Shown: piece by piece, positions 7,229 through 27,317 of the stretch | Layout: each line of letters opens with the position of its first letter | Numbering within the stretch: position 1 is the stretch's first letter | Assembly (NCBI GenBank): GCA_009602725.1 | Contig: WELB01000020.1 | Span: 548,956 to 578,727 of the forward strand | Origin: Spirogloea muscicola | Lineage: Eukaryota; Streptophyta; Zygnematophyceae; Spirogloeales; Spirogloeaceae | Length of the DNA: 29,772 bases | Reading direction: 5' to 3' | Notes under the pieces: generated by a model | Seen by the model: the letters and a program-made list of their open reading frames with translations, nothing else | Told to the model about the DNA's origin: nothing | Database searches by the model: none | Position numbers and translations under genes: made by a program

Positions 7229-7668
7229 GTTTAGTCAGCATTGTTTGACTTTATCATCTACAGAAAATGCGTTGTGTGCATCTTTGCAAGTACTAAGTAA
7301 AGTCCCGAATAGGGTGCGTAGAGATACTGTGACGTAAGTCCCGAATAGGGCGAACCCCGTTGTTATCGGCACTTGATACATTTGCTTACCTGGCACTGAG
7401 ACGATTGGTTACAGTGCCCGAGACCCTACGTGGCCATAAATCTCGGATCTAGTTCATTGCACTGCTGTTGACTGCTTGTGGTCTTCCAACCCACTTCTTT
7501 ACTGGACCGAGTAGAACTGCGGGTAAGGGGGACACATATAAGCAAATTGCAGGTCTCTACATCTGACTTCGGGTGCTATATGCTCGTTCTGCTCTAGACT
7601 CGGTCATACAGACTCCCAATGCCGGCAGAAACACCCTGAAAAACTACCCATCTCCATGAAGGTAAAAT
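7229..7668 (+). other. Possible LTR/leader remnant with a 15-bp direct repeat
   Basis: AT-richer non-coding sequence 5' of gag. AAGTCCCGAATAGGG occurs at 7300-7314 and again at 7336-7350. A TATA-like ACATATAAG is at 7530-7538. No matching downstream copy was found, so calling it an LTR is inference only. Confidence 0.35.
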
Positions 7669-8300
7669 ATGGTCAAGAAAGGGTTTCTAGTCAGGTGGCA
7701 CAGTCGTCCGGGTCCTCTCCTTCAAAAATCGATCAAATGGCAAAACAGATCCAGGAATTTATTAACTAAACACTTGGCAGTTGTCAAGGCGCAGACAAAG
7801 TCTACGATAGTCTCGACTACGTTGCCTTATTCAGATCAGCAGGAGGATGAGGATACTTACACAGGACATCACAACCCCCACAATCCTGATGGGTATGATG
7901 CTCATCACCGTCATGCTTATACATTATTTCTGCCCAGTCGTGATCCTCTTAAGCGGGGGATGAAATGCAGCAAAGTGTCAGATCTGGTTATTTTCGGTGC
8001 GCAGCGAGTTTTCAGTTGAAGGATATCGAAGCCGACAGCCTACCTCGCCGCGTTAAGCCTGTGTTACCCAAGCCAGTTATTGGCACAGTTCCAACGAAAT
8101 GTTCTGTGTCGACTGATAAACTACTGAATAGGATGTATTCCACCCCTATTCTAAGCTATGAAGACCTTGGCATGACAAAGGCACAGTTGGGGGGATACAT
8201 ACAAGCCTCCGATAGTCCTCATCAAATAGTCACAGTGCGAGTGACCAACTCGCCTGCAGTAATGACCACAGCAGTCTCAAAATCTTTGGCTGTTGACTAG
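7669..8300 (+). pseudogene. Gag C-terminal remnant
   Basis: Two overlapping frames (7669-8019 and 7965-8300) carry pieces that match the gag of the minus-strand copy: a SKIDQMAKQIQEF segment (another frame, about 7720-7760), an acidic QQEDED stretch, SRDPLKRG (SRDPLKQG in the other copy), and LLNRMYSTPILSYEDLGMTK, which parallels LLKKMHTVSVLSLKDIGVSE. The zinc-knuckle part visible in the minus copy is not recognisable here. The segment ends in a stop at about 8298, just before the protease. Confidence 0.6.
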
Positions 8301-8329
8301 ATTTCATGCAGGCCACCAATTGCAGGAAC

Positions 8330-8690
8330 CGAGCAGCTAGCTGCTGTGGCCATGCTGGACAATTCAGAAGGAGCCATCCAGGTCTCCTACAAATATGCAA
8401 CAGAGGCACCCATCCATGTCCTTCTGGACACGGGTGCACAACCCATCCTGATTGGATCTCGCTTTGCCAAGTTGCTAAAAATTGAGAAGGATGATATGCT
8501 ATGTAAAAAGGTCCGGATCACCACAGCAACTGGTACCACAGATAACGTGGTTGGAGTCACCGAACGCCCGTTGCATATCACCTTAAACGATCAGGATCCT
8601 GCTAAGCATACATCCTTTTCGGCCATATGCATGATATCAAAAGCCACAACATATGATTGGGTACTGAGATTTCAATTCCTTTAGGTTTTG
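8330..8690 (+). pseudogene. Retropepsin-like aspartic protease domain
   Basis: This domain would cleave the element polyprotein. The catalytic signature is VLLDTGAQPILIG, with D-T-G at 8427-8435, followed by RFAKLLKIEKDD and VVGVTERPLHITLND. FSAICMISKATTYD corresponds to the second hydrophobic catalytic-fold segment. The minus-strand copy aligns throughout but has D-Q-G at the active site. The frame breaks near 8665-8684, where a few codons equivalent to VLLG in the other copy are missing and the reading shifts to the linker frame. Only this frame defect separates protease from linker. Confidence 0.8.
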
Positions 8691-9121
8691 GACTAGACTC
8701 TGAAGTGGCCTGGTACAGACCTCAATGGAAGAATTCAGGTACCACAAGGATCATCTCACCTCTATTGAAGGGGTGGAGATCGAATAAAATATCAGCTAAT
8801 ACTAGTATCGTGATTGTGGATTCAGCTAAACATGAACCAGTAACTCCAGAGAAGCTTTTCTCCGCAGAAGAGAAGGACGTTCCTACAGACCAGAAGGCCA
8901 TCGATGAGCTTGCAGAGGCGGAGGAGACATTCACCGATCTTCAGAAGGATGAGACTGAAAATTCTGCAGAACTTCATCAACAGGATAACAAGGGTAAAGG
9001 GCCACAGGACGATGTGCCTATTGTACCAGAACCCAACAAAGTTCGGGACATGGTGGTGTATGGGCAAGCCCATGGTGAGTCATCACAGTCTTCGGTGCGT
9101 GCCAAGAGGCTTTGCAGATGA
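8657..9121 (+). pseudogene. Protease-methyltransferase linker
   Basis: The start reads IPLGFGLDSEVAWYRPQW and continues with a SPLLKGWR stretch, parallel to IPSGFGIEYYTEVAWYRPEW and LPLLKRWR in the minus copy. After that it is acidic and low in complexity (many E, D, Q), ending in a KGKGPQDDVP-like motif (KGKGILQEDVP in the other copy). It is probably a flexible spacer before the methyltransferase. A frameshift near 9115 separates it from the next domain. Confidence 0.65.
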
Positions 9122-10499
9122 TTGCCCTTGATCCAGACCAGGCCAATCAGCAGGCAGGCCGCATACGTCCCGCGCCCAACATGGGTATACCGCGCACCTA
9201 CATGGAAGAATTGCAGGTTGCCAAGAACCATGAGTTGGTCAAGGCGTCACGTCTGTGTTTTCCCGTGGTAGGCGACATGCGAGCTGAAGAAGCGTGGACC
9301 GAAGACACCCTGACAGCACAGCCCCCAACAGTACACTCAAATGCTGGCAGCGAGGTTGTGGATCGGCTGGGGGTATCCGACCACGGTGTCATTGACTGGA
9401 GTTTGCCTCCGGAGGGCATTGTGTTATTGGAGTTGCTTGGCGGCACCGCAAATGGTTTGAAAGCAGCATGACAAAGCCACATCACGGTGGCTAGATATTT
9501 CTACATTGACATCGATGATGAAGCTCGTCAAACTGCGCAACACCACATCGACTATCTGCTCCGCCAATATCCAATTTTGCTCCAACCATCAACGTTTGCG
9601 CAGTGGGATACCTTGCTCCCACAAGACATTACGAAGGCCGCACCGCCAGGAATGTTGCGCCGTCTTCCTTCAGTTGATCTTATTGTGGCAGGTTTCCCCT
9701 GCCAGGTCTTCAGTGCCATTGGCAAAGGTCTGGGATTTGCTCAAAATGACACGGCTCCTTTCCAGCCCATGGTGAAGTTTATGCATGCGGTGCAGGCAAG
9801 ACAGACCCGACCAGTAATTTATATTAATGAAAATGTTGAATCTCGGGAAAATCAACCGACGGCGCGATTTGGTTTTGCGACAATTTGCGACATCCTTGGA
9901 CCTCAGACAATATTAGATGTAGCCTTTGTTGGTTCGCTTGCAGACCGCAGGCAGGTTCACTGGACGAACTTGGCACCGGCAAAGATGATGCAGATCTGCA
10001 TCAACAACCAATACCGGCCTCTTGGATTACATGCTTACATGGCGCTAGATGCTGGAAGAGAGGTCATGCCAGTGTACGGGTCCAAGCTAGAGCACCACTT
10101 CAATCAGCCAGATCAGAACGCGTCACCTTTCCAACTCTTATGGTGACGGTGGACTCCGAGGGTTTCAGATCGCACTATAACAGGAAAGGACCAGGCATGG
10201 TTAGGTTGAAGGGTACCAACATCTTCCAGGAACCCAATTCTCGTGAGAGGGAGAGAGCCATGGATATGAACCCGGGGAAATTACTCTACTCCATCACTCT
10301 TTTAGAAGCCCTGTCACTAACTGGGCAGGCATTCGATGCGAATTCCATGTCTTGGATATTTAGCGTCACGAATGCCATTCAGGCTAAGAGGAAGGTCAAA
10401 CAACAGCTTTACAACAATGATCCTAAGAGCGTTTCATCTTTAGACATCAGTCTTCTGAAATTGTTTGATCCTGTTGTTGATAACAATGAGGACTTCTGA
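9112..10499 (+). pseudogene. C5-cytosine DNA methyltransferase domain within the retrotransposon
   Basis: The family transfers methyl from S-adenosylmethionine to cytosine C5 through a covalent Cys intermediate. Motif I (SAM binding) is LLELLGGTANG at 9424-9456. Motif II is YFYIDIDDEA near 9496-9525. Motif IV is DLIVAGFPCQVFSAIGKG at about 9676-9729, with the catalytic Cys codon at 9700-9702. Motif VI is INENVES with E-N-V at 9829-9837, and motif VIII is RRQVHWTNL near 9946. Motifs IX/X are probably RERERAMDM (10242-10268) and SLTGQAFDANSMSWIF (about 10315-10362). An in-frame TGA at 9469-9471 separates motifs I and II, where the second copy (12890-13361) has Met. A -1 frame change lies near 10110-10140. 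The N-terminal 100 residues match the 12960-13200 copy but no known domain. The DNMT subclass cannot be assigned without a tree. Confidence 0.88.
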
Positions 10500-10649
10500 C
10501 AATCACAGCCTATCAGGCAAGTTTGCTGATCTTTAACTGGGTACCAGTGGCAGCTTGGTCCTGATCTGTCTGCAGAAAAGAGTTCCTGTATGATTAGGTT
10601 GTCGAATGATAACCTTACCTCTTTTGCTTTCTCATCGGCTGATTCGAGT

Positions 10650-10679
10650 ACATGTGTACAACATGGGTTGTACACATGT
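10650..10679. repeat. Perfect inverted repeat, 13-bp arms
   Basis: ACATGTGTACAAC (10650-10662), a 4-base spacer, then its exact reverse complement (10667-10679). It lies at the start of the RT frame, between the methyltransferase and the first RT motif, in either DNA or RNA form able to make a strong hairpin. Confidence 0.95.
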
Positions 10680-11494
10680 TGGTTGGTTCCAAGTTTCGAA
10701 TTCAGCTTATAGATGAACGTCCGACTTTCAGTCAACGGTATGCATTATCTAAGGTTGAAAATGATTTTATAGATGACAACCGCCAAGAATTGTTAGCCAT
10801 TGGTTTGATACAATCATCCAACAGTTCGTTTGCTGCCCCCACAATTTTCCCAGCCAAGAAATGAATTTGGCAATTACACAGATAGGAGAATTTGTGGTGA
10901 TTATCGTCAACTCAATTTGTCCACACCTCTCGATCAATATCCTATGCCCACCCCCGATGAGATTTTTGCCTGTGTGGGAGACAGCAAGATCTTTTCAGCG
11001 CTAGATCTTAGGCAAGGATATAACCAAATCGATCTTGAGCCTGGAGACGGGCATAAGACCGCTTTCTGGGGGGCCCGTGAAGGTGCTGGAGTTCTTTATG
11101 AATGGTTAAATATGCCATTCGGTCTCAACAAAGTGGCTCCCATCATGTTTCAGCGTGTCATGGACATGGTTTGAGACACGTTCCATTTGCACGGTTTTAC
11201 ATCGACGACATATTAGTGATCAGTGAGAATTTTGCAGGACCCTTGAATCATGTTGCAGTTGTGCTTGAGCCCATACAGCAGGCTGGACTCAGATGTCACC
11301 CAGGAAAATGCCGTTTTGGCTTGTCTGAAGCAACCTATTTGGGTCACCAGATTTCAGACAAGGGTCTGTCCCCACAAGCTGCCAAAGTGCAAGCTGTTCT
11401 TGACATTCCTCCGCCAACCAAACTTACATCGTTGCGATCTTTCCTTTGCTTGGCTAGTTGTGATCGAAAATTCATCATTCAGTTCCATCGCTAG
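10652..11494 (+). pseudogene. Reverse transcriptase domain (Ty3/gypsy type)
   Basis: This is the RNA-dependent DNA polymerase of the element. Successive motifs are RYALSKVENDFIDDNRQELL and GLIQSSNSSFAAPTIF (N-terminal region), RICGDYRQLNLST, FSALDLRQGYNQIDLEPGD with the first catalytic Asp, KTAFWG, MPFGLNKVAPIMFQRVMDM, and the YIDD box (11198-11209) in FYIDDILVIS. CHPGKCRFG, YLGHQIS and GLSPQAAKVQAVLDIPPP then lead into the connection. The frame changes at about 10860 (one extra base after AAGAAA) and about 11172 (one base short in a T run before GAGACAC), and it stops at 11492. All motifs are typical of gypsy RTs; the reading breaks make the copy inactive. Confidence 0.9.
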
Positions 11495-11559
11495 GCCTCT
11501 GAATGATTTGCTCAAGAAAGTTGCCACTGGCAGTGGACTACTTCTCGTCACCAAGCATT

Positions 11560-11899
11560 CACCTCAAACAGGCTCTCACTCAAGCTCCAGTTCTGCGACA
11601 TCCCGACTATACCAAACAATTGTAATCAATTGTAATTGCATACAGATTGGAGCAAAGTGGGGATGGGTGCTGTTTTGACTCAGCATGATGAGGACAACCA
11701 TCAATATATTATCGCTTGTGCGAGTTGCAGTAACAACTCTGCACAGCAAAATTATTCTGCATATCATGGGGAACTTTTGGCTGCAATGTGGGCCATCACA
11801 CATTTCCGACCGTACCTACATGGTCGCTCGTTTCAATTGATTACTGATCATCAGCCTTTACAATGGTTGTTAACAACTGATAAACTCACAGAAAGCTAG
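11560..11899 (+). pseudogene. RNase H domain
   Basis: This domain degrades the RNA of the RNA-DNA hybrid. It shows TDWSKVGMGAVLTQHDED (first catalytic Asp in T-D), QQNYSAYHGELLAAMWAI with the catalytic Glu in G-E-L-L-A, and LITDHQPLQWLL with the third Asp. This is the standard gypsy pattern except for Trp in place of the usual Ala/Ser after TD. The frame ends at a TAG near 11897 and resumes in the integrase frame (QLQEYDFIFIYRPG, then DADALSR), the normal RNase H-integrase connection. Confidence 0.85.
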
Positions 11900-11904
11900 C
11901 ACGC

Positions 11905-12870
11905 TTGGCTCTTCAACTACAAGAGTATGATTTCATATTTATTTATCGTCCTGGTCTTCAAATGATGGATGCTGATGCTCTCAGTCGAAACCCAACTTCC
12001 GATGCTATTTCCGAACAATTTGCTCACATGATCATTTGTCATGAACCCATGTTTCACTGTCGATTGGCGAATGCTCTTACGACCTCTACACATGCTGATC
12101 ATTCAGTAGGCGCTCTTGAAGTGTCTAATGATGACTTCTGTTTCAAAGACGTCTGGTCGGATGCACCAGTTCTCCAATACCTACAAACTGGCACATATCC
12201 TGTTGGCTCCACTACCATGCAGAAGGATCGGGTTAAACACCGAGCCCGTCGTCATGTAAGGAAGGATACTCAGCTCATCAAATCTGATGTTGAATACGGA
12301 AATCGAATTGTTCCACCTTTAGCGGTGCGACACCAATTAATGTATGAAATCCATACATCACTTGGACACAACGGAATTAAGAAAAGCATCAGTTTGTTGG
12401 TCACTAAGTGTTGGTGGTCTGGTCTCACAGACACGGTAAAACACGTTCTATCTCAATACGAGGAATGTGATAGAATTCGAAACACATTCTCGTTGAAGTC
12501 ACCTCAACTACATCCTCTGCCCATCCAAGGACTGTTCTATCGGTGGAGTTTGGACTTAGCTGGTCCCCTAAGAAGGGGTAAGGAACGCCCTTATGTACTT
12601 GTCATGATTGAGCACTTCTCCAAATGGGTGAAAGTGTTCATCATTCCTAGCAAGTCCAGCATACATGTCAAAGAAGCTTTCGTGGAACAGGTGTTGTCAC
12701 GATCCGGGGCTTTCGCCGAAGTGCTCACTGACCAAGGCACTGAATCTCAGGGAGACTTACAACGTCTTTCAGACCAAACGTTTATTTACCATCGTCTTAC
12801 CTCACGCGATCATCCACAAGCTCATGGTTTCGCGGAACGTACTGTCCAAACGATCAAACGTGTACCCTAA
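11905..12870 (+). pseudogene. Integrase (zinc-binding and DDE core), C-terminally truncated
   Basis: Integrase joins element DNA to the host genome. The first 30 residues complete RNase H (YRPGLQMMDADALSRNP). The HHCC zinc finger has both His (HTSLGHNG), but the first Cys is Tyr (SQYEECDR), so the finger is probably defective. The DDE core has Asp in WSLDLAGPL (about 12550), Asp in LTDQGTES (about 12725) and Glu in HPQAHGFAERTVQ (about 12830). The frame stops at 12868-12870, shortly after the catalytic Glu, so the C-terminal domain is missing. The methyltransferase fragment of a second copy begins about 20 bp later. Confidence 0.88.
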
Positions 12871-12889
12871 CCAAATATGCTCTCCGCAA

Positions 12890-13361
12890 AGGTACGGAAT
12901 TTGCATCCACTTCATCAGGCCAGTCCGCACCCCAACAGCCCATCAGGACTTACACCCCGATGCCCAGTGTGGGCTTGACACCGCCACAGCTACAGCATCT
13001 TGAAGTGGAGAAGCACTGGGAGCGCATCAAGGCTGCCCGTAGATATTTTCCTGTGGTTGCTCATTTCCATGCGGCGGAAGCTTGGACAGCAGACACTCTG
13101 ACATCTCATATTCCGCCGCTGGTTTCCAACACGGGGACGGAGGTGGTTGAAGACATGGGTATCTTTTACAATGGTGTCATCAACTGGACTCTACCTCCTG
13201 CTGGGATTGTGCTGGTCGAAGTCTTTGGTGGCACTGCTAACGGCTTTCGAGCCGCTATGCAAAGCCATATCAAAGTGGCATGCTACATCCACGTCGACAA
13301 CGACCCTCAGGCACAAGAGGCTGCTGTCCAAGCTTCCGCCGCATGGAAATGAGCAACCACT
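12890..13361 (+). pseudogene. Second DNA methyltransferase fragment (N-terminus to motif II)
   Basis: The fragment parallels 9112-9540. It has KAARRYFPVVAHFHAAEAWT (KASRLCFPVV and AEEAWT in the first copy), TLTSHIPPLVSNTGTEVVED, INWTLPPAGIVLVEVFGG with motif I F-G-G-T-A-N-G-F, then AMQSHIKVACYIHVDNDPQA (motif II). No stop lies between motifs I and II here, unlike the first copy. The frame is cut at about 13351, where sequence turns back into the reverse complement of 12890-13040. The catalytic PCQ motif is not included. Confidence 0.82.
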
Positions 13362-13515
13362 GGAAAATATCTACGGGCAGCCTTGATGCGCTCCCAGTGC
13401 TTCTCCACTTCAAGATGCTGTAGCTGTGGCGGTGTCATGCCCACATTGGGCATCGGAGTGTAAGTCCTGATGGGCTGTTGGGGTTCGGACTGGCCTGATG
13501 AAGTGGATGCAAACT
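12890..13515. repeat. Inverted repeat with about 150-bp arms inside the methyltransferase region
   Basis: Left arm about 12890-13040 and right arm about 13365-13515 are reverse complements with only a few mismatches. Shared blocks include GCATCCACTTCATCAGGCC, CAACAGCCCATCAGGACTTA, GCCACAGCTACAGCATCTTG and GCGCATCAAGGCTGCCCGTA. The intervening 325 bp holds motifs I and II on the plus strand. It marks the join of two family members in opposite orientation. Confidence 0.93.
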
Positions 13516-13900
13516 CCGCTTTGTAGTTGAGTTCAGCACCATAAGTGGAAGTACTGCAGGAGGCACGATTGGTGATTGGACTGGAGGAGGCACCAAAACT
13601 GGTGGGGTCCCGTCTGCCCTTCTGGGAACATCTTCCTGCAATATGCCCTTGCCCTTGTCTGCATTGGGAGAATGAACTTCATCAATAGCGGTTTCACTGG
13701 ATTGCGAAGACGAGCTACTGTCGACCTGACCAGTATGTACTGGAAGATTAGTAAATCTCCATCTCTTAAGCAGAGGCAATGTCACTCTATTTGTGCCAGA
13801 CGACCTCCATTCTGGTCTATACCAAGCCACTTCAGTATAATATTCAATGCCAAATCCCGATGGAATTAGGAACTCGGTGCCGAGCAATACATCATATGTA
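13435..13900 (-). pseudogene. Protease-methyltransferase linker, second copy
   Basis: Begins FLIPSGFGIEYYTEVAWYRP and has a LPLLKRWRF motif, as in the plus copy. It then becomes Ser/Glu-rich, reaches KGKGILQEDVP, and ends in a Pro/Val-rich tract before the ADGTPPVLVPPP-type spacer. No known domain. Confidence 0.6.
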
Positions 13901-14211
13901 GTTGCTCTGGTAATCAAGCACACAGCTGAAAAGTACGTGCGTTGACGAGAGTCTTTAGCGTTCAAGGTAATGCGAAGGGGTTACTTGGTGACACCAACAA
14001 CACTGTCTAGGCCACCTGTGGCAGTTTTGATTCTGACCATACTGCCACCAATGTCGTCCTTGCTCAAATGCAGTTGTTTAGCAAAGCGATTACTGATTAG
14101 GACTGGCTGGGCACCTTGGTCCAAGAGGACCGCAGCCGGTGATGCTGAATGAGTATTCGTTGCCACGGTAATGACACCCTCGGTATTATTAACCATTGCC
14201 ACTGCAGCCAA
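13900..14211 (-). pseudogene. Aspartic protease domain with altered active site (DQG)
   Basis: It aligns with the plus-strand protease: VAMVNNTEGVITV (AMLDNSEGAIQV), VLLDQGAQPVLISNRFAKQL (VLLDTGAQPILIGSRFAKLL), and KTATGGLDSVVGVTK. The catalytic signature is D-Q-G at 14113-14121 where retropepsins have D-T/S-G, which predicts loss of activity. The frame is interrupted near 13970-13981 and continues as YFSAVCLITRATTYDVLLGT in the next frame. Confidence 0.78.
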
Positions 14212-14249
14212 TTGAGCAGTCCTCTCCTTCGGAGGTCTGCATGGGACAC

Positions 14250-15485
14250 ATTATCTGACCAGGTAAGTGCAGTCTTAGCTATTACGGGAGCAGCTGAAAT
14301 GGCCTCATGCCCAGTGGTTTCTAGTATGCTGCATTTGGTGATCAGATCAACCTTATGCTTCTCCGAAACACCAATGTCCTTCAAACTAAGGACTGAAACT
14401 GTATGCATTTTCTTCAAGAGTACATTATTAGACATCGCCGAAGTAGGAAGTGCCTGTGCGGGAACACTAGATTGAGACCCCACACGAGGAATAGCTTCAC
14501 TGCTTGGGACATCATTTACTCTGAAGCCGGCGGGATATCTTGCAGTGCCTGTTCTAGAGTTATGACGCAGCTCATGTAAACCTTGCTTGAGTGGGTCACG
14601 GGAAACACTTGGATTAGACATCACAACAGCGGCAGGGTGGTGGTTTAGGTTAGAAAGATACCCATCGTCAGTCTCACTTTCATCTTGGAAATAAGACGAT
14701 AGCGGTGGGTTATCCTCGTCCTCCTCGGAGTGACTGAACGGTGCATGGCAGCAGAAGACTGACCATCTAAGACTGGCCCTGCTTGTTTGACAGATCAAGT
14801 TCTCTAAGTAAGGTCTGCGATTTGTCTCTGCATCTGTTCGTATTTATCATCCCGATTACTGGTGGACGGCATCTTTCCTGCAGCCATTTTGTTTCTGAGA
14901 GCTGCAGGCATCTTGTCCTCGCCCAAAACTGGTGTTCTAGATGACCTTGTCTAGAACAATGTGAGCACATAGCACCAGCTCTTTGGTGTTGGCGAGTGCA
15001 ATCTTTTCTCACATGGCCAGCTTTCCCACATGCATTGCAAACAGGAACCGGACGGTTTGTATTTATAGGAGCTGCCACATGAGCCCTCTTCATACCTTCA
15101 GGTCATCTTCTGAGGAAACTTTGGATCCTGTCGCACTCCCGTTGCCTGCAAAACGTTCATCTACGCATTGTAAGGCGTAGTCGTCATTTTTCTTTCTCTA
15201 GCAGTATCTGGGAAACGTCTGCTAGATCGTAATCTTGTTTTTGTAACAGATGTCGCCGTTATGAGGAGCGTTCGGAGCTGATTCATGGATTCCCGCCATT
15301 ATGCGTAAGAACTGAATGGCTAAATCCTTCTTACTGATGGTGGTCTGTGACTGCTCAATGACGTTTATGGAACCGTAATAACATATAGTGACCGATTCAC
15401 CCGGCTTGCGACAGAACTTCGTCAACTCCTGTTTATGGACCAGGGTATTGACTGGAAAGTATTCAGCAAGACGCCTACACAGGTG
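14250..15485 (-). pseudogene. Gag with CCHC zinc knuckles
   Basis: Gag is the capsid and nucleocapsid precursor. The capsid end shows RRLAEYFPVNTLVHKQEL, then FCRKPGESVTICYYGSINVI and KKDLAIQFLRIMAGI (15485-15222, minus strand). The nucleocapsid part has knuckle 1 CNACGKAGHVRKDC (about 15040-14999, complete C-x2-C-x4-H-x4-C) and knuckle 2 CSHCSRQGHLEHQF, where the last Cys is Phe. Downstream is a KYEQMQRQIADL helix (another frame, about 14850), an acidic SEEDEDNPP stretch, SRDPLKQGLHELRHNSRTG and KKMHTVSVLSLKDIGVSE, the pieces conserved in the plus copy. Frames switch near 15220, 14900 and 14770, so it is a pseudogene. Confidence 0.8.
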
Positions 15486-15720
15486 GTATTAACGTTCTTT
15501 GAATAGATTGTTTATCTTATTCCAAGTTCTCAATTGCCAACCACATCATCTGTTGGTTACTCCTATTCTGTTACTTTCTGTTCTGTTGTTTTCATTCGGT
15601 ATCAAAGTAGCTTTCAAACTCCTCGCAGACCTTTTAACCTCATTTCATCAAGTGCCCACCACGCGAGGCTGATTTGTTGCCTGCTTCTGTACTGATCTGA
15701 CTTCTCGACGTCATATAGCA
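15486..15720 (-). other. Putative 5' leader of the minus-strand element
   Basis: AT-richer non-coding sequence outside gag, with A-rich runs on the minus strand. Composition returns to GC-rich at about 15720, taken as the right end of the retroelement island. No terminal repeat partner was found. Confidence 0.35.
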
Positions 15721-15834
15721 GTCGATGCCCTGTGGCACGACACCCTTTCAAATTCATGCGCACCACGCGCCTTCTCTTCAGGAGCGCATGGGGTCACCCC
15801 TTGGCCCGGAAGCCCCCCTTCGAACATGCGTTCC

Positions 15835-16345
15835 GTCCATTCATTCTGGGCTAGCTTTTCACAGGTTACTAAGTAATTATGTTACCGGGAAAGCTTCGGG
15901 AAAGCGCTATCTGGCCCCTTCGGACCTTGTCAAATCTTTTGGGGCTGGCTGTTCACAGCCCTTGCCCCGTTTGGGAGAGCCCCTTTCCTTGTTCTCACAG
16001 GAAGGACTCATCCAGACTTCTCACAGCCCTCGCCCCATAGTAAGAGCTTACTCTTTTTCCATGGACTGGCATACTACATCCTTCGCTCACTTACTCATCG
16101 TTACTAAACTAAGTCATCCTCCCGGGCAAAGTCTAAGACATCGCTTTTGACCCCTTCGGACCTTGTCAAATTTTACCGGCTGGCTGTTCACAGCCCTTGC
16201 CCCCTTTGGGAGAGCCACTTCTCCCTACGCCAACCTGCGGAAGAAAGTGGCTCTCTCAGAGGGAAGAACAGTCTCTTTCCAGTCTCTACGGGCTGGCCCT
16301 TTACGGCCCTGGCCCCCTTCGGACGAGCTTGTACAATTTCTCACA
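15835..16345 (+). mobile_element. Cluster of LINE-tail hairpin modules
   Basis: At least two modules of the type CCTTCGGACCTTGTCAAAT, T-run, GGCTGGCTGTTCACAGCC, CTTGCCCC-TTTGGGAGAGCC occur at 15911-15986 and 16150-16224. A third, partial one is at 16282-16330. Between them is a CCATGGACTGGCATACTACATCC...ACTCA segment that is repeated at 20793-20835. Non-coding. Confidence 0.75.
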
Positions 16346-16639
16346 GCCATTGCCTTACTTTGGAAAGACCTGATTCTTTGCCTCTTGCATAACAGCGTGT
16401 TGGCCCAGCTTGGACCCCCTTTCCACTGTTTCACACTGTTTTGCAGAATGACTCTCAACTGTTTTGCAGAACGCAATGAAGTCACACGCATCTGAGGGGG
16501 GCTTCATTATGGCTTTCTTTTGTTATTAGGGCTTTCCTGCTATTCTTGGCTCATTCTTCTGGGATCTGCCAATCACAGTCATCGCTCTCTACTGGAAAAA
16601 TCATGTTCTCTTGTTTCTTGTTGGAGAGATTCTGGTAAA
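16346..16639. other. No recognised feature
   Basis: Contains a local direct repeat of CTGTTTTGCAGAA-like blocks (about 16437 and 16458). No gene could be supported. Confidence 0.45.
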
Positions 16640-17300
16640 TCTCTCCCAACTCTGGCAGCCGTGGGAACGCGGCGCGGCCATTGGCGGCTCTGACGCCGCC
16701 AGCAAAGAAGTTGCTGCAGATCGCGCTGGTGGCGCTTTTCATGTGCGGGCACTTGTCCATTCTCTTGACCTGGCCAGGCTTGTGCGGCGCGCTGTCCCGC
16801 CAGCAAGGTGAGTTGGCTGACTTCAACGCCGCTGGCTCGTGGGCCCAGGTATATTGCATGCGATTGTCCGTCTCCCTTCAGCGGTTCATGGCCCACGCCT
16901 TGCATCTGCGTGCTGGCCGTGCTCTCGCTGCAGCCTCTGGCTTTCGTCAGGGGGATTGTTTCCAAGGTCCCTTGCCTTCGCGGTTCACTTGCCCGCAAGC
17001 AGCGCTTTGGCTGCGGCCTCCGGCTTCCGTCAGGGCGACGTCTATCCGCCTGCTAGCTATTCCGATTTGCATCTCATCACTAGGAATTACTGAGAGTCCC
17101 CTTGCTGCCGTCTTAGCTCTTATACCTTGCTTTCTCCGCAATCCGGCTCCTTCAGTCCGTGTCCATTCCTGTGGGCTGGCCTCTCGCGGCCACCAGTCAA
17201 TCTGGCCGCGCTTTCTTCTTTCCAGCAGCTAGTCTGTCGGATCTGAGGCTCCTCACTCGTAGCTACTGAGGGTCCATCCTATGCCCGTTCTAACATAGGG
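16640..17300 (+). mobile_element. 5'-truncated LINE 3' end (rearranged)
   Basis: The coding part reads DFNAAGSWAQVYCMRLSVSL, then HALHLRAGRALAAASGFRQG at 16821-16958, as in the copies at 5241-5792 and 18087-18448. A second, partly duplicated stretch follows (SGFRQGD-like at about 17021), then a C-terminal tail S-D-L-H-L-I-T-R-N-Y-stop at about 17060-17092. A further tail (TAGTCTGTCGGATCTGAGG...TAGCTACTGA) lies at 17229-17269 after a GGGCTGGCCTC hairpin module at 17170. The upstream 16640-16800 region is a diverged FVPLAVDVHG-type stretch in broken frame. Several insertions are probably stacked here. Confidence 0.7.
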
Positions 17301-17302
17301 CT

Positions 17303-17490
17303 TCAGAAGAATTGCGCTCCCATAGAGGGGCTGTCAATGCCAGCCCAGAAAAGAATGCACAATATCCAAAGGCCACAAGTAAGGTGCCGAAAATAATAAA
17401 CTACACAACTAGACAGACACGAGATGATGCAGATGGAAGCGCAGTACCCACGAGTGAGCAACAGCAAGTCAGAGTAAGTCGAAGCTGGGA
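17303..17490 (-). mobile_element. LINE 3' tail, minus strand
   Basis: Read on the minus strand, this is a C-terminus Y-S-D-L-L-L-L-T-R-G-Y (about 17484-17449), a UTR with ACTTGTGGCCTTTGGATATTG, then a hairpin GGGCTGGC/GCCCC-type stem and CTATGGGAGCGCAA. It matches 17880-18060 (minus) and 2178-2370 (plus) segment by segment. Confidence 0.7.
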
Positions 17491-17582
17491 AAGAGGCACT
17501 CCGCTGAGACCCAGAGGCAGCAGCCATCGCGCGGCCGGCGCGTGTGTGGACTGCGTGAGCCAGAGAGCACTGGAATGAGACC

Positions 17583-17660
17583 CCTCCGTCATTTGGCCCC
17601 TTCTTGTCGGGCTGGCTTTTCACAGCCCTTGCCCCCATTGGGAGAGCCACTTCTTCTGGC
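17583..17660 (+). mobile_element. LINE 3' UTR module
   Basis: CCCTCCGTCATTTGGCCCCTT leads into GGGCTGGCTTTTCACAGCCC, then TTGCCCCCATTGGGAGAGCC and ACTTCTTCT. It is the same module as 18519-18600 and, reversed, 3170-3285 and 25358-25445. Confidence 0.75.
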
Positions 17661-17879
17661 CACAGCCATTGCTGTCAATTCGGAAGAGCGGTTTCTATTG
17701 TATATTCTTGCTGCGCGCAGGGCTGTCGAGCTTCCGGCCAATTCGGACCATGCCCATCCCTTTTAGGTTGGCCTTTTCGCGCCGCGTCGACCTGTGTGGC
17801 GTCCACGCCGGGCGGCGGCGTGCGCATCATCGCTGATGTGGTCACTACTGATGTGGTCTGACGGCTCCAACCCGGGAAA
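17661..17879. other. No recognised feature
   Basis: Short intervening sequence with a tandem CTGATGTGGTC pair near 17833 and 17849. No gene seen. Confidence 0.45.
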
Positions 17880-18060
17880 AGGCTCGCCCATAGAGGATGA
17901 GGACCTAGCAAAGCTAGCCCAGAAGAGAATGGACAATGTCTGCAGGCCGCGGGGGCCACAAAATAGTGCCCGGAAAGACAACTACACACCAAGACACGAA
18001 ATAATGCAGTTGGATGCTCATTAGCCACGAGTGAGCAACAGCAAATCAGAATAACTCGAA
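17880..18060 (-). mobile_element. LINE 3' tail, minus strand
   Basis: The reverse complement has a degraded S-D-L...L-T-R-G-type C-terminus (about 18055-18020), then a UTR through GGCCCCCGCGGCC, GACATTGTCCATTC and the stem GGGCTAGC/GCTAGG-like, and a CTATGGGCGAGCC end. It abuts the plus-strand copy that begins at about 18087, giving a head-to-head pair. Confidence 0.7.
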
Positions 18061-18086
18061 GCAGGAACAGCGCCCGGGGCTCTCTG

Positions 18087-18860
18087 CCTCGCGGGCTGGC
18101 CACGCTGCGGTGAAGGCCGCTCGCAGCAAGGCGGCCAAACACGCCGATCACCCGGCTGCAGATGAATTCGTACCCCTGGCCGTGGACGTGCACGGGGCTC
18201 TCGGGTCCCAGTGGCTCGACCTGCTGGCCACGCTTGCGCAGCGCGGTGAGCCGGCTGACTTCAACGCCACTGGCTCGTGGGCTCAGGTATATCGTATGCG
18301 ATTGTCCGTCTCCCTTCAGCGGTCCATGGCCCACGCCTTGCATCTGCGTGCTGGCCGTGCTCTCGCTGCGGCCTCCGGCTTTCGTCAGAGAGATAGTATT
18401 GCGGCAGCTAGTCTGTCGGATTTGAGGCTCCTCACTCGTAGCTACTGAGTGGTCCATCCTCCCCCGTTCTGCCATAGCCTCTTCAGGCCCCGCAGTTGCT
18501 GCTTAGCTCGTAGGTTGGCCCCTTCGAACCTTGTCAATTCTTTTCGGGCTGGCTTCTCACAGCCCTTGCCCCATTGGGAGAGCCACTTCTTCTTCTCTTT
18601 CTTTGGCTTTGGACATTGTCCATTCTTTTTTGGGCTGGCTTTGCCAGCCCCTCCTCTATGGGCGAGCACTTTCTTCTTCTTAGCACTCCGGCTCCTACAG
18701 ACCTTGTCCATTCCTTTGGGCTGGCCTCTCCCAGCCACCAGTTGATCTGGCCGCGCTTGCTTTTTTGCCAGCCCCTCTTCTCTATGGGCGCGCACTTCTC
18801 TTTTTTGGGCTGGCCTCTCCCAGCCACCAGTTAATCTGGCCGCGCTGCTTTTGGGCTGGC
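18087..18860 (+). mobile_element. Best-preserved LINE 3' end: endonuclease-domain C-terminus and hairpin UTR
   Basis: A continuous frame (about 18110-18448) reads AARSKAAKHADHPAADEF, VPLAVDVHGALGSQWLDLL, DFNATGSWAQVYRMRLSVSL, RAGRALAAASGFRQRD and ends S-L-S-D-L-R-L-L-T-R-S-Y-TGA. The K...H/Y-then-FVPLAVD layout matches the last motif of restriction-like endonuclease domains in R2/CRE-type LINEs, but the CCHC finger and RT lie beyond the truncation. The 3' UTR holds three hairpin modules in a row: GGGCTG/CAGCCC at 18548-18565, a perfect 8-bp GGGCTGGC/GCCAGCCC stem at 18632-18650, and GGCTGG/CCAGCC modules at about 18719 and 18809. The last two modules may be separate insertions. Confidence 0.8.
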
Positions 18861-19606
18861 GCACGGGTGCTGATGTTAAAGCGTACGGGTGGAATGGCTG
18901 GGGCAGCCAGGTGCTCTCATTCGAGCGCGGATAATGTCCAAACGCCCAACTGTACGTGGGTGGCTGTCCCGACGACTGACGTGAAGTGGATTGGCTTGCT
19001 ACTATGTTGTAATCCGCTTCTTAGTATGCGCCCGCTGCAATATAGAGCTGGCCTCTCACATCCACTGCCTTACATTGAGAGGCCTGTTTCTTCTTTTCTT
19101 CTATCATAGAGGGGCGGGTGTTACTGCCAGCCGAGTGCATACTCGTTCTTTGTGGGCTGGCATTCACAGTCTCGCCCCCTCTGGAAGAGCTACTCCCCCT
19201 TCTACGCCAGCCTTTTCAGCCTGCTTTCACAATCTTCCTTCAGCACCCCTTTGCATAGGGCTTCGTTTATGTAGCCCCATTATTTGTACTGGCCTTTGCC
19301 TGAGTAGTGTACTGGCTTAGATTCGCCTCCCAGACTTAATACATGCGCACTGCACGCATTACTCTAGCAGCTTGCGCGGCATTAAGAGCAGCGGAGCGAG
19401 CAGCCCGCCTTCGACACCGTCGGGTCGCTCCCTGAGGAGCGAGGCCAGCTCGGAAGCAAGAGCTCTTTCAATGTAAGGTAGTGCTGGTGAGAGGCCTGCC
19501 AATGAGGAAGAGCTCTTCTAAGCTGCAGATGCTGGCTCACGAGAAGGCAGATAAGAGGTAGGGAACCCTGGAACCAGGTTAACTGAGTGAGAAACTCCAG
19601 AGGAAA
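18861..19606. other. Intergenic with one LINE-tail remnant
   Basis: A degraded module (GGGCTGGCATTCACAGTCTCGCCCCCTCTGG style) is at 19154-19190. An 18-bp hairpin TCGCTCC/GGAGCGA lies at 19424-19441. GAAGAGCTCTTC-like repeats are nearby. No gene could be supported. Confidence 0.5.
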
Positions 19607-20003
19607 TCAGATGCGGATATTGTCCAGCATGCCTGTGTCCAATTGAAGATTGTGACCACTAAGGTTTGCAGTGATTGGCACAAGGTGGACACATGTGTGT
19701 TTACTAACAACCGAGCGCAAGTGGTTGATTCGTAGCACATCCTCGCTCAAAATAGCATCTAACCATTGTCTCATGGGTGGAGCTACATTGGGATGATGAA
19801 CCACTGCTGATGTTATTCTGGATGGCTGTGCCACCCACTTCTTGCGATACTCCAAGCGGTCAATCTCTCGAAATGCCATACGCTGGACGGTCAGGACCTC
19901 TCGATCATCACTAGAATTCTCATAGAGGCAGTAGCGGATGTTAAACTGGAGCTCTACCAACTCGAAGAAGGCCCAGTCCTTGACCTGGTCAAGGACACTG
20001 TCT
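19607..20003 (-). CDS. Unidentified possible exon (hypothetical)
   Basis: A minus-strand open frame of about 130 codons starts after a good acceptor (TTTTGCAG at 20004-20011) and reads DSVLDQVKDWAFFELVELQF, then REIDRLEYRKKWVAQPSR, MRQWLDAILSEDVLRINHL and VVSKHTCVHLVPITANLSG before a stop at 19607. Its amino-acid composition is balanced, unlike the Ala/Pro/Arg-rich shadow frames around it, which suggests real or formerly real coding sequence. The family is not recognised. It lies on the same strand as, and 1.3 kb downstream of, the oxidase gene, and its upstream side is LINE debris with an unresolved base at 20037. It could be an orphan exon or part of an unrecognised mobile element. Confidence 0.35.
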
Positions 20004-20036
20004 GCAAAACACATCACGAAGCGTCAGCACAGGTTG

Positions 20037-20037
20037 N
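20037..20037. other. Ambiguous base (N)
   Basis: Single N in the assembly, inside a LINE C-terminal remnant. Confidence 0.99.
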
Positions 20038-20039
20038 GC

Positions 20040-20545
20040 CATTGACCTCTGCAGCGAGACGGCCAGGCGCATGCAATACACCTGGGCGAGCGACCCGGCT
20101 GCAGGAAAGTCCACCGGCTCCCCATTGAAGCGGCGAGCGACGGCGTGACGGGCAAGCTGGTGGAGCAGTTCGAGCCACCGAGCACCCAACGCCCCGTGTG
20201 TGTCGATAGCCAGCGGAGTAGAAAGAAAGAAGAGTAGCTAGCCGGGGGAAGACGTCGCCCTGACGGAAGCCGGAGGCCGCCGCCAAAGCTCGGCCTGCGC
20301 GCAAGTGGACCGCGAACGCAAGTAACCGCCGAAGCGAGACGGCCAACCGCATACGGAAGACCTGCGCGAGGGACCCGGCGACATGTAGCCGGGCTGCTCG
20401 CCCTGCTGCCCGTGGCGGCGGGCCGCGGCCTGCTGCGCCAGGCGGTGAAGCAAGTCGAGCCACTTTGCGCCGAAGGCCCCGTGTACGTCGACTGCAAGGG
20501 GAACAAATTCGTCGCCCCAGCTTTGGGAGAGCGCTTTCTGGCCCA
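20040..20545 (-). mobile_element. Two tandem LINE C-terminal remnants
   Basis: First copy (about 20520-20240): FVPLAVDVHGAFGAKWLDLL, HRLAQQAAARRHG, then, after a frame change, SLAQVFRMRLAVSLRRLLAF and HLRAGRALAAASGFRQGDVF. Second copy (about 20215-20040): DTHGALGARWLELLHQLARH, GEPVDFPAAGSLAQVYCMRL and AVSLQRSM. They repeat the same C-terminal domain as 5241-5792 and 18087-18448 in a more diverged form. The tandem order suggests one truncated copy inserted next to another. The 20037 N lies at the end. Confidence 0.72.
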
Positions 20546-20945
20546 TCCGGACCTTGTCAAATTTGTTTTTTTGGGGCTGACTGTCCACAGCCCTTGCCCC
20601 CTTTGGGAGAGCCACTTTCCTTGTTCTCACAGAAAAGACTCTTCCAGACTTCTCACAGCCCTGGCCCCATAGTCAGAGCTTAATTCTTTCCGTGTCTGCC
20701 TAGCCTGTGGCTCCGTTAAGAACATCTGTATTCATCTGACTGGCTTTCACAGCCGCTCCTTTAAGATCAGCAGCCGCATTCATGTTTTCCGTGGACTGGC
20801 ACCCTACATCCTTCGCTCACTAACTCGTGGTTACTAACTGGATCATCCTACCAGGAAAATTTGAAGACAGCAATTTTGACCCCTGCGGACCTTGTCAAAT
20901 ATTCCCGGCTGGCTGTTCACAGCCCTTGCCCCCTTTGGGAGAAGG
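20546..20945 (+). mobile_element. LINE-tail hairpin modules
   Basis: Two modules, at 20547-20615 and 20880-20943 (GGACCTTGTCAAAT, T-run or CCC, GGCTG-CTGT-CACAGCC, CTTGCCCCCTTTGGGAGA). Between them is the GTGGACTGGCACCCTACATCC...ACTAACTCGTGGTTACTAACTGG stretch, a variant of the LINE C-terminal tail also seen near 16060. Confidence 0.7.
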
Positions 20946-25679: not shown

Positions 25680-26075
25680 CCCGCAACCGGCGCCTAGATC
25701 CTCGCCTGCTTGTACGGCGCCTACGCCGCGCGCGGCGCCCATCTAGTGGGCGAGCCCTTTCCTTCGTTTAGTGGCGCTACTCGCCCTTGGTTGGCAGTAT
25801 CTCCAGCGGACCTCCTCCGATTGGCCAGGATATGGCGTGTTCGAAGGGCAGACAGCGAGGGGCTGTCAGGCCGGCGCCGGCCGTGTGCGGAAACGACGCC
25901 GGCCCCAAGTTGCCCGCCTGCTGTGCTGCAATCCCGACGGGCCCTTTTTCTTGTGGGCTGGCCTCTCACAGCCACCAGTCAATTTGGAAGTCACGCGCTG
26001 CTTCTGGTTCCCCGGAGCAGGGCGGCGCAGGTTCTCAGCGTGACTCCGAAAATGGCTTCCTTCATTTCATCCTCT
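25680..26075. repeat. Segment shared with 1800-2130
   Basis: See the left counterpart. A GGGCTGGCCTCTCACAGCCACCAGTCAAT hairpin module (about 25956-25985) is inserted between shared blocks in this copy only. Confidence 0.6.
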
Positions 26076-26187
26076 CTGGGGCTGCGGTTTCACAGCCCTC
26101 GCCCTCTCGGGAACGCCTCCAAAAACACCTCACCCCCCTCCCTTCCCTGCCCCTCCTTGGAATATTTTGTGTATTTGAATCCCCTCC

Positions 26188-27317
26188 TTGGGGACACAGC
26201 TGGCGTTGGCCATTCTCACCCGCTGCATCGGCCAACTGGAATGCTACCTGCAACGGACAGTCGCCCCAATGGGCATGGTGGGCGAGCTCTACAAGGAATT
26301 CGACAACTCTCTGCTGCAGTCCCTGGCATCCCTACAATCTTCCCCTCCGCTTCCTCTTCCCTCCAGGCTTCCCTCCCCACTCGCATGGGCGGCCTAGGCT
26401 GCCGGTCGTTGGAGCAGACTGCGCAAGCAGCTTTCCTGGGCTGCTGGCACCAGATCGCCTGTATGCTTCCCATGCGCTTCCACTTGCCTCCACGATCCCG
26501 TACGCAATGTGGAGGAAGGCTCCTTCCCCTTCCAAGCGGATCTGAGGAGCATCCGTGACTCGGCAATCGGCCCTTTCCCCTCTATACAACCCCTACTCAC
26601 GCCACTCTCCGACCTCGCCCAAGCTTCGGAGAGAGGGGCACAATCCAGACTGGTTACGGCAGTGGAAGATGAGCGCCGCAGAAGCTTGAGGAGGCTGCCA
26701 GAGATTCACGACAATCCTAGGAGCCTGGCAAGACTTACTTCCCTCGCCACACCTAGAGCCACAGACTGGATCACCTCACACGCCGTGGCCAGCGCCTTCA
26801 GCATCAGCTCCGAGGCCTTTCGGACGTTGCTTCAACTCTTCCTCGGCCTCCCACCCAACTGCCTGATTGGGGTGTGCCAGTGTAAGTGCGGCTTCCGTGC
26901 AGAGGGTGCTGAGCTCGCCACTCACATGCTGCGATGCCCCACTGGACCAGAAGTTGTGGGCATCCACAACGTCCTCCGTGATGCCCTGGCGGATTTGATG
27001 CGCAATGCCGTGTACCGTGCGGTCGTGGAAGTGAGCAACATCATGCCTATACCAAGGATGCCCAGGGACGTCATCATCGCCGCACACTTAACTTTGTGGG
27101 CGTGCAACCTGGTGGAGGACCACGGGCCTTGGTCGATGTTGTGATTACGGAGGCCTATAAAGGTCCAGCATTCACACACATCGCTGGCCACGCAGTGGGC
27201 AGTGCTGAACAAAGAAAGTTGCAGCACTACTCCGATTACCCCCAATGTGATCAGCTCCTGCCAGCGGCAATCGACATCTTTGGCTGCTTAGGTCCTCGTT
27301 TCCTTACTCTCCTTTAA
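26188..27317 (+). pseudogene. 5'-truncated LINE ORF with CCHC finger and restriction-like endonuclease motifs
   Basis: C-terminal third of a non-LTR retrotransposon protein. The post-RT region reads LTRCIGQLECYLQRT, LPTRMGGLGCRSLEQTA and AAFLGCWHQIACML, a pattern common downstream of the RT in plant and algal LINEs. The finger is C-K-C-G-F...THMLRC (about 26878-26938), followed by IHNVLRDALADLM. The endonuclease-like part has PRDVIIA, GPRALVDVVITEAYK (Asp of the D-V core), and K-L-Q-H-Y before LLPAAIDIFGCLGPRFLTLL, which matches the FVPLAVDVHGALG segment of the other LINE. The frame changes near 26330, 26500 and 27097. No RT catalytic motif is present, so the element is 5'-truncated. It ends at TAA 27315-27317, 161 bp before the first ENGase exon. 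Confidence 0.75.

Follow-up and report, generated by a model that had tools for sequence, protein, structure and literature searches.

Here, we provide evidence that a stretch of 29,772 nucleotides from the streptophyte alga Spirogloea muscicola (contig WELB01000020.1, positions 548,956 to 578,727; the whole stretch analysed is hereafter the window) holds a dead copy of a gypsy-type retrotransposon in which a cytosine DNA methyltransferase (DNMT), probably of the Dnmt3 class, lies between the aspartic protease (PR) and the reverse transcriptase (RT). The anatomy of the element and its family status are firm: the DNMT is a stable domain of an old multi-copy family and is tied to one RT clade. 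In this family the DNMT is followed by a predicted leaky stop codon, and kindred elements with a DNMT in one of two positions occur widely in green algae. Why a transposon carries an enzyme of a class used to silence transposons was left open in the main text of the 2018 description of a similar element (de Mendoza et al., PMC5890265).

A multi-copy family and its copy in the window

The genome searched comprises 153 Mb in 471 contigs, and copies are named here by contig, the window copy being C20. A Pfam search for DNMTs gave 71 places, and a search with the DNMT of copy C2 gave at least 105 matches, several per copy in places. C2 has open frames for both PR-DNMT and RT. Its first open reading frame (ORF1, 1411 aa) contains gag, a zinc knuckle, protease, a linker and the DNMT; ORF2 (1037 aa), in the same frame after one stop (TAG CAA TTA), contains RT, RNase H (RH), an H2C2-rve integrase (IN) and a PHD finger. 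PF00145, RVT_1, RT_RNaseH, Integrase_H2C2, rve and PHD were matched above the Pfam cut-off, gag-asp protease and zf-CCHC below it.

The association with the RT was assessed on 150 of 659 candidate RT hits, 59 of them with at least 49% identity to C2 (near) and 91 with at most 43% (distant), against a list of 120 DNMT places (all 105 C2-DNMT matches and 15 of the 71 Pfam places). A same-strand DNMT match within 5 kb upstream accompanied 44 of the 59 near hits and none of the 91 distant ones. Two near rows had only an antisense DNMT match nearby, and 13 rows, representing 12 loci, were first seen without a DNMT. Among these loci, C290, C123, C7 and C115 hold DNMT remains and C142 is masked by N. 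The first-pass annotation of the window had held that full-length family members lacking the DNMT would point to a chance insertion. No DNMT was present within about 2.6 kb at 7 of the 12 loci; two of these (C17, C36) are internal deletions, and the remaining five show either rearrangement or no recognisable gag or PR ahead of the RT. The DNMT is present in both host subfamilies. We conclude that it is a stable domain, as that annotation had proposed, because it follows the RT clade, recurs in the same slot in other algae and is under purifying selection.

A second gypsy group without DNMT upstream (C70, C80, C225, C294, C33, C235, C267, C412) has nine RT copies whose open frames all measure exactly 1237 aa, suggestive of recent amplification. 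An RT at C119:326983-327618 lies in a 7286-aa open frame that may run through an N stretch and not be a real ORF.

Within the window, tblastn with related copies and Pfam bear out the annotated order of gag, PR, DNMT, RT, RH and IN, all on the plus strand. The features are as follows.

7518..7754, plus strand: degenerate gag zinc-knuckle region (tblastn with C48, 69% over 75 aa, and with C157 ORF1)
7971..8836, plus strand: C-terminal part of gag and aspartic protease (LLDTGAQ near 8421), with one frameshift near 8660 (tblastn with C48, 73% over 237 aa; translation)
9097..10496, plus strand: putative Dnmt3-class cytosine methyltransferase with N-terminal extension (translation, tblastn, Pfam; class from family profiles)
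10497..10505, plus strand: DNMT/RT junction stop in predicted readthrough context of the tobacco mosaic virus (TMV) type, TGA CAA TCA (context conserved in the family; control stops)
10530..11932, plus strand: RT and RNase H, frames broken (tblastn with C2 ORF2 residues 12-469)
11893..12861, plus strand: integrase with H2C2 zinc domain and rve (DDE) core, C-terminal part missing (tblastn, Pfam)
12895..13325, plus strand: inserted piece of another copy, linker and N-terminal part of a C157-type DNMT (tblastn with C157 ORF1 825-971, 67%; inverted repeat arm 12895-13097)
13322..15482, minus strand: inserted piece of another copy, head-to-head with 12895..13325, with gag, PR, linker and DNMT start (tblastn with C157 ORF1 176-893; inverted repeat arm 13316-13518)
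15502..15743, plus strand: C-terminal end of the integrase polyprotein with PHD finger (tblastn with C157 IN-PHD 461-541, 65-73%)

The methyltransferase motifs are where the first-pass annotation had placed them. Motif I for S-adenosylmethionine binding (LLELLGGTANG) is present in the translation, the PCQ Cys codon falls exactly at 9700-9702 and ENV at 9829-9837, and PF00145 was matched at 9487-10143 (E 3e-8). Integrase_H2C2 (4e-10) and rve (7e-8) were matched in 11905-12867; Pfam gave no match on 15502-15624 alone. The domain had been called nearly full length, which holds for its motifs but not for the integrity of this copy: the DNMT is interrupted by a TGA at 9469-9471 directly after motif I and by a frameshift near 10075-10146, and the second Arg of motif VIII, invariant in a 13-row alignment, is replaced by Gln (read by eye from the translation). 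Further decay comprises a TGA near 10527, breaks in gag/PR and RT, and the integrase end cut at 12861. Nor does the element end at 12889, as had been supposed, since its PHD-bearing C-terminal piece lies at 15502-15743 and the intervening 12895-15482 consists of rearranged pieces of another copy. With its stops, frameshifts, lost integrase end and rearranged insert, the window copy is dead.

The two inserted pieces are joined head to head by an inverted repeat at 12895-13518 (203 bp, 96% complementary, arms 218 bp apart), the product expected of reverse-transcription strand switching or rearrangement.

Terminal repeats could not be recognised within the window, and the element ends were read from other copies, all of the C2-type subfamily. 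Comparison of near copies revealed split repeats: A (1033 bp) and B (212 bp) are arranged as A1-coding-B1-A2-B2 in C65 and in the internally rearranged C328, as A1-coding-B in C2, and as solo A-B units elsewhere. Ends of the form TGTC...GACA (TGTT in C137) and 4-bp target duplications were seen in 7/7 copies (C328, C65, C384, C274, C52, C137, C2), and the B1-A2 junction reads GACA-GC-TGTC in both C65 and C328. The arms of these two copies are 96-99% alike overall (A1/A2 99.3% over 548 bp in C65; B1/B2 98.6% in C328), so the lineage has been active recently. Shortened forms also occur: C174 and C66 (L010, L016) lack gag and PR and have repeat A a few hundred bases upstream of the DNMT, and in C328 (L014) an A fragment replaces the end of gag and PR. 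All retain the DNMT and are forms produced by template switching or deletion within the element.

Two plain direct long terminal repeats (LTRs) were not found in the fetched stretches of C2, C157, C48 and C38 or in the window. Because the repeats are split, without two direct flanking LTRs, we call the family gypsy-type and not a canonical Ty3/gypsy LTR element. It shares with Ty3/gypsy the RT-RH-IN order, a DDE integrase, an upstream aspartic protease (Pfam match below cut-off), and TG...CA ends with a short duplication. Membership in DIRS, PAT or Ngaro elements is rejected for want of a tyrosine recombinase match: a genome-wide search for PF00589 in six frames, exon by exon, gave no match, with 14/14 controls recovered. 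To judge from sequence, the repeats look DIRS-like and the insertion looks like that of a DDE integrase, a combination that bears on how split-repeat elements restore their ends.

Elsewhere in the window, positions 15912-20938 carry many dispersed repeats of 40-120 bp of the type GGCTGGC...CAGCCC in both orientations. Such repeats also occur elsewhere, among other places beside the 18S locus L061 (C33), where the gene is apparently interrupted by them or broken off upstream of its 3' part; the 18S 3' end pattern had three matches in the genome, and by its signature the 18S end resembles that of a streptophyte. A search for the RuBisCO large subunit gave no match. Overlapping plus-strand ORFs at 25710-27144 gave no Pfam match, and we take their translations to resemble the C-terminal end of a non-LTR retrotransposon.

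The stop between methyltransferase and reverse transcriptase

Among the fetched host loci, 32 have a readable DNMT/RT junction; L027, whose alignment stops short of this point, and L058, which is masked, were excluded. An in-frame stop stands at the same place in 25 of the 32, at a distance of 15-16 codons from the downstream RT start motif (22 in C246, 14 in C341). It is followed by CAA in 23 of these 25 and by CAA YYA in 21 (exceptions C246, C341, C1 and C104). TAG was used 18 times, TGA 7 times and TAA never. The codon after CAA encodes Leu, Pro or Ser and ends in A in 23 of 24 such cases (C341 has Arg); codons ending in A account for 24% of Leu, 39% of Pro and 20% of Ser codons in C2.

UAG-CAR-YYA is the TMV-type readthrough signal of plant viruses and some plant retroelements. 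The junction matches this signal and is read here as a predicted leaky stop. The likeness to known TMV-type signals lies in a conserved junction ahead of the polymerase ORF that reads STOP-CAA-YYA; the difference is that in the S. muscicola family the product ending at the stop would be Gag-PR-DNMT. The first-pass annotation was thus right to place the DNMT between PR and RT, but its wording 'inside pol' does not suit S. muscicola, where the domain is better described as the C-terminal end of the Gag-PR ORF, before the leaky stop.

The enzyme and its relatives

Relatives were collected as 233 proteins from three protein searches, two of which contributed the best 120 of 4253 and the best 120 of 397 matches. 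The DNMT precedes the RT in 14 of the 233 (first type), including Klebsormidium nitens P0058, Closterium P0072 and P0094, and P0087 and P0103, whose label Tetstr1 we read as Tetraselmis. It follows RNase H in 126 (second type, RT-RH-DNMT-IN-PHD), including proteins of Haematococcus, Astrephomene and Scenedesmus. All 14 first-type relatives have DNMT and RT fused without a stop, as single predicted proteins must. A search of viral contigs with P0005 gave no match.

A tree of 100 RT rows, with the second type represented by 25 of 117 at random and the named ones, contains a branch (support 100/86) that separates 27 second-type rows from 14 first-type and 12 DNMT-clade host rows. The tree of 44 DNMT rows, rooted on DNMT3A pieces as the only outgroup and with a bootstrap that had not settled, gave the same two-way split (96/98). 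The comparison of DNMT and RT trees suggested in the first-pass annotation thus came out congruent at this level. Seven distant host RTs without DNMT fell on the first-type side of the RT tree, on a long branch and with weak placement, which would fit loss of the domain or a root elsewhere. The two slots would fit a single capture and a single move, or two separate captures of related Dnmt3 genes.

Profile comparisons point to a Dnmt3-class enzyme, by a small margin for the host-only profile. The family profile (13 sequences, 9 from the host and 4 from other sources) matched DNMT3A best in PDB (5e-21), followed by DNMT3B, HhaI (2e-10), DRM2 (1e-8) and DNMT1 (0.11), and the second-type profile (4 sequences) also matched DNMT3A best (5e-11). 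The catalytic Cys, the ENV Glu and both motif VIII Arg are kept in 9/9 host sequences, and Cys, ENV Glu and motif VIII Arg are nearly invariant across all aligned rows. One pair of copies, C134-C351, gave dN/dS = 0.127 over 366 codons and indicates purifying selection; the synonymous sites of the other 35 pairs had reached or approached saturation (pS 0.73-0.89), with pN at 0.26-0.49.

The PHD finger of C2 follows the integrase in ORF2 and is closest in PDB to the fingers of MLL3, MLL4 (KMT2D), CHD4, ATXR5, KAT6A and BAZ2. Several of these bind the unmodified histone H3 tail. In P0001, P0002 and P0004 the tail beyond the PHD finger weakly resembles N6-adenine (D12) methyltransferases (PF02086, E 0.003 in P0001, below cut-off; the others by eye) and is perhaps a second, decayed methylase.

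A proposed role, its alternatives and known systems

On balance, we lean towards a model in which the Dnmt3-class domain is a permanent part of the gypsy-type family, represented in the window by a dead copy, and acts within the element's own cycle. To judge from the junction motif, most ribosomes would stop after the DNMT, which would be made at the level of Gag, with Pol as a minor readthrough product. DNMT and Pol would both be packed into the particle, where the DNMT may methylate the new cDNA, or else the insertion site, de novo. The PHD finger may help to read the target chromatin. Methylated cDNA could pass as self, could escape DNA sensing, or could enter a tolerated silent state. The cDNA ends would be restored from the internal B-A junction by a replication route suggested by the repeat arrangement, and the DDE integrase would insert the cDNA with the 4-bp duplication observed at the element ends.

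A broader reading, less likely than the model above and offered tentatively, joins these points: the DNMT would enter the particle at the level of Gag and mark the element's cDNA ahead of insertion by the PHD-bearing DDE integrase. The association would be ancient in the green lineage, and the domain would have moved once between slots (before RT in the group that includes streptophytes and Tetraselmis, after RNase H in other chlorophytes), so that chlorophytes would carry Dnmt3-class enzymes on mobile elements. The leaky stop suggests the dose, with DNMT made alongside Gag and RT in minor amount, and this speaks for an action within the particle. That the domain occupies two positions in pol and is widespread among green algae suggests an old, retained association and provides natural replicates.

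Several observations weigh against the model that we favour. Two family copies lost the domain by internal deletion: the sequence joined directly to RT is the start of the DNMT N-terminal extension in C17 and gag in C36. No DNMT was found in 93 of the 233 relatives; 62 of these have one long RT, and 45 of the 62 begin within 130 residues of it, so that an upstream ORF is possible. The junction counts are not independent, the copies being related, and 7 of the 32 junctions have no stop: C134, C365, C248 and C21 read straight through, and the frame is damaged or shifted in C326, C31 and C269. DNMT and RT share one ORF without a stop in P0020, P0024, P0038, P0040, P0058, P0072, P0094 and the host copy C21, and the leaky stop is therefore not essential to this kind of element. 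As to enzyme class, HaeIII methylase (1.4e-9) comes close to DNMT3A (1.6e-10) with the host-only profile A3 (8 sequences), and the window DNMT piece alone matches HhaI best, and weakly (0.001). Motif IV has Glu in place of Pro (EC for PC) in 64 of 109 second-type rows with the Cys, in 4 of 9 first-type and in 1 of 9 host sequences. Finally, the DNMT domain of KnitGypsy-Dnmt3, the K. nitens element and source of the closest enzyme tested, gave no methylation in yeast; its authors draw no conclusion from this, because human DNMT3B also failed (PMC5890265).

An unlikely but serious alternative is that the DNMT acts in trans, altering host chromatin methylation or silencing rival elements or viruses and leaving its own cDNA aside. 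With the DNMT encoded ahead of the stop, far more of it than of RT is predicted; transposon methylases have been proposed as an antiviral defence (PMC6338049), and a benefit to the host is considered in the discussion of de Mendoza et al. (PMC5890265). Unless it acts in cis, however, a benefit to others can hardly be selected on an element, and the DNMT-bearing proteins, in which the domain is fused to Gag-PR or Pol, point to a function within the particle.

We regard it as rather improbable that the domain is kept for DNA or RNA binding or for structure, with the Pro-to-Glu change in motif IV marking the loss of normal activity. The frequency of EC among the second-type rows speaks for such a role, as do the domains of both KnitGypsy-Dnmt3 and the SymbioLINE elements, the latter likewise without methylation in the yeast assay in which human DNMT3B failed (PMC5890265). 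Yet those rows show almost no variation at the Cys, the ENV Glu or the motif VIII Arg residues, PC is present in 8 of 9 host sequences, and the domain is under purifying selection. The Pro-to-Glu change in so many of these enzymes offers a direct test of a textbook catalytic motif.

That the stop before RT reflects decay or an alternative genetic code, and not readthrough, is highly improbable. The copies do carry many other stops, 126 in the aligned coding stretches (a few places perhaps counted twice in overlapping loci), but only 4 of these are followed by CAA and none by CAA YYA, and 40 are TAA; the junction stop recurs at one position as two different codons, with CAA-YYA kept while the encoded residue varies. 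Nor is TAG an ordinary sense codon in C2, because its two ORFs contain no other in-frame stop. The chance insertion of a host DNMT beside one retrotransposon copy, finally, has a negligible probability and is ruled out by the family-wide DNMT-RT association in many copies and several species.

Returning to the element-borne role that we favour, the S. muscicola family is of the same kind as KnitGypsy-Dnmt3, described in the main text of de Mendoza et al. (PMC5890265) as a Gypsy element with Dnmt3 in its Pol ORF, DIRS-like repeats and purifying selection. Both have Gypsy domains, a Dnmt3-class DNMT in the polyprotein, DIRS-like repeats (in the host, for the C2-type subfamily) and purifying selection on the DNMT. 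The arrangement, which the first-pass annotation had marked as deserving comparison, is less new than was supposed, since the published element has the same one. P0058, with the order PR-DNMT-RT-RH-IN and no stop between DNMT and RT, is inferred to be a KnitGypsy-Dnmt3 copy. The host family is distant kin to it, with ORF2 about 44% identical to P0058 and K. nitens proteins at 36-44% among the matches listed. The words PHD, readthrough, read-through and target site duplication are absent from the main text of PMC5890265, and neither there nor at the abstract level of the literature did we find the leaky stop, the PHD finger, the 4-bp duplications, the second slot of chlorophytes or the Pro-to-Glu change. 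On the family itself, the abstract-level literature together with PMC6338049 and PMC9998398 yielded nothing beyond PMC5890265.

SymbioDIRS-Dnmt3 of Symbiodinium likewise carries a Dnmt3-class DNMT in a retroelement polyprotein and has A-coding-B-A-B repeats, and its DNMT domains methylate CG de novo in yeast (PMC5890265). It has a tyrosine recombinase and a DIRS-type Pol, whereas the S. muscicola family has a DDE integrase, 4-bp duplications and no PF00589 match. The chlorophyte elements are notable because DNMT3 was not identified in the green algae of MMETSP, as stated by Hoguin et al. 2023 (PMC9998398). These RT-RH-DNMT-IN-PHD elements resemble the S. muscicola family in their related RT, integrase, PHD finger and putative Dnmt3-class DNMT, but differ in that the DNMT lies between RNase H and integrase, and they fall on a separate side in both trees.

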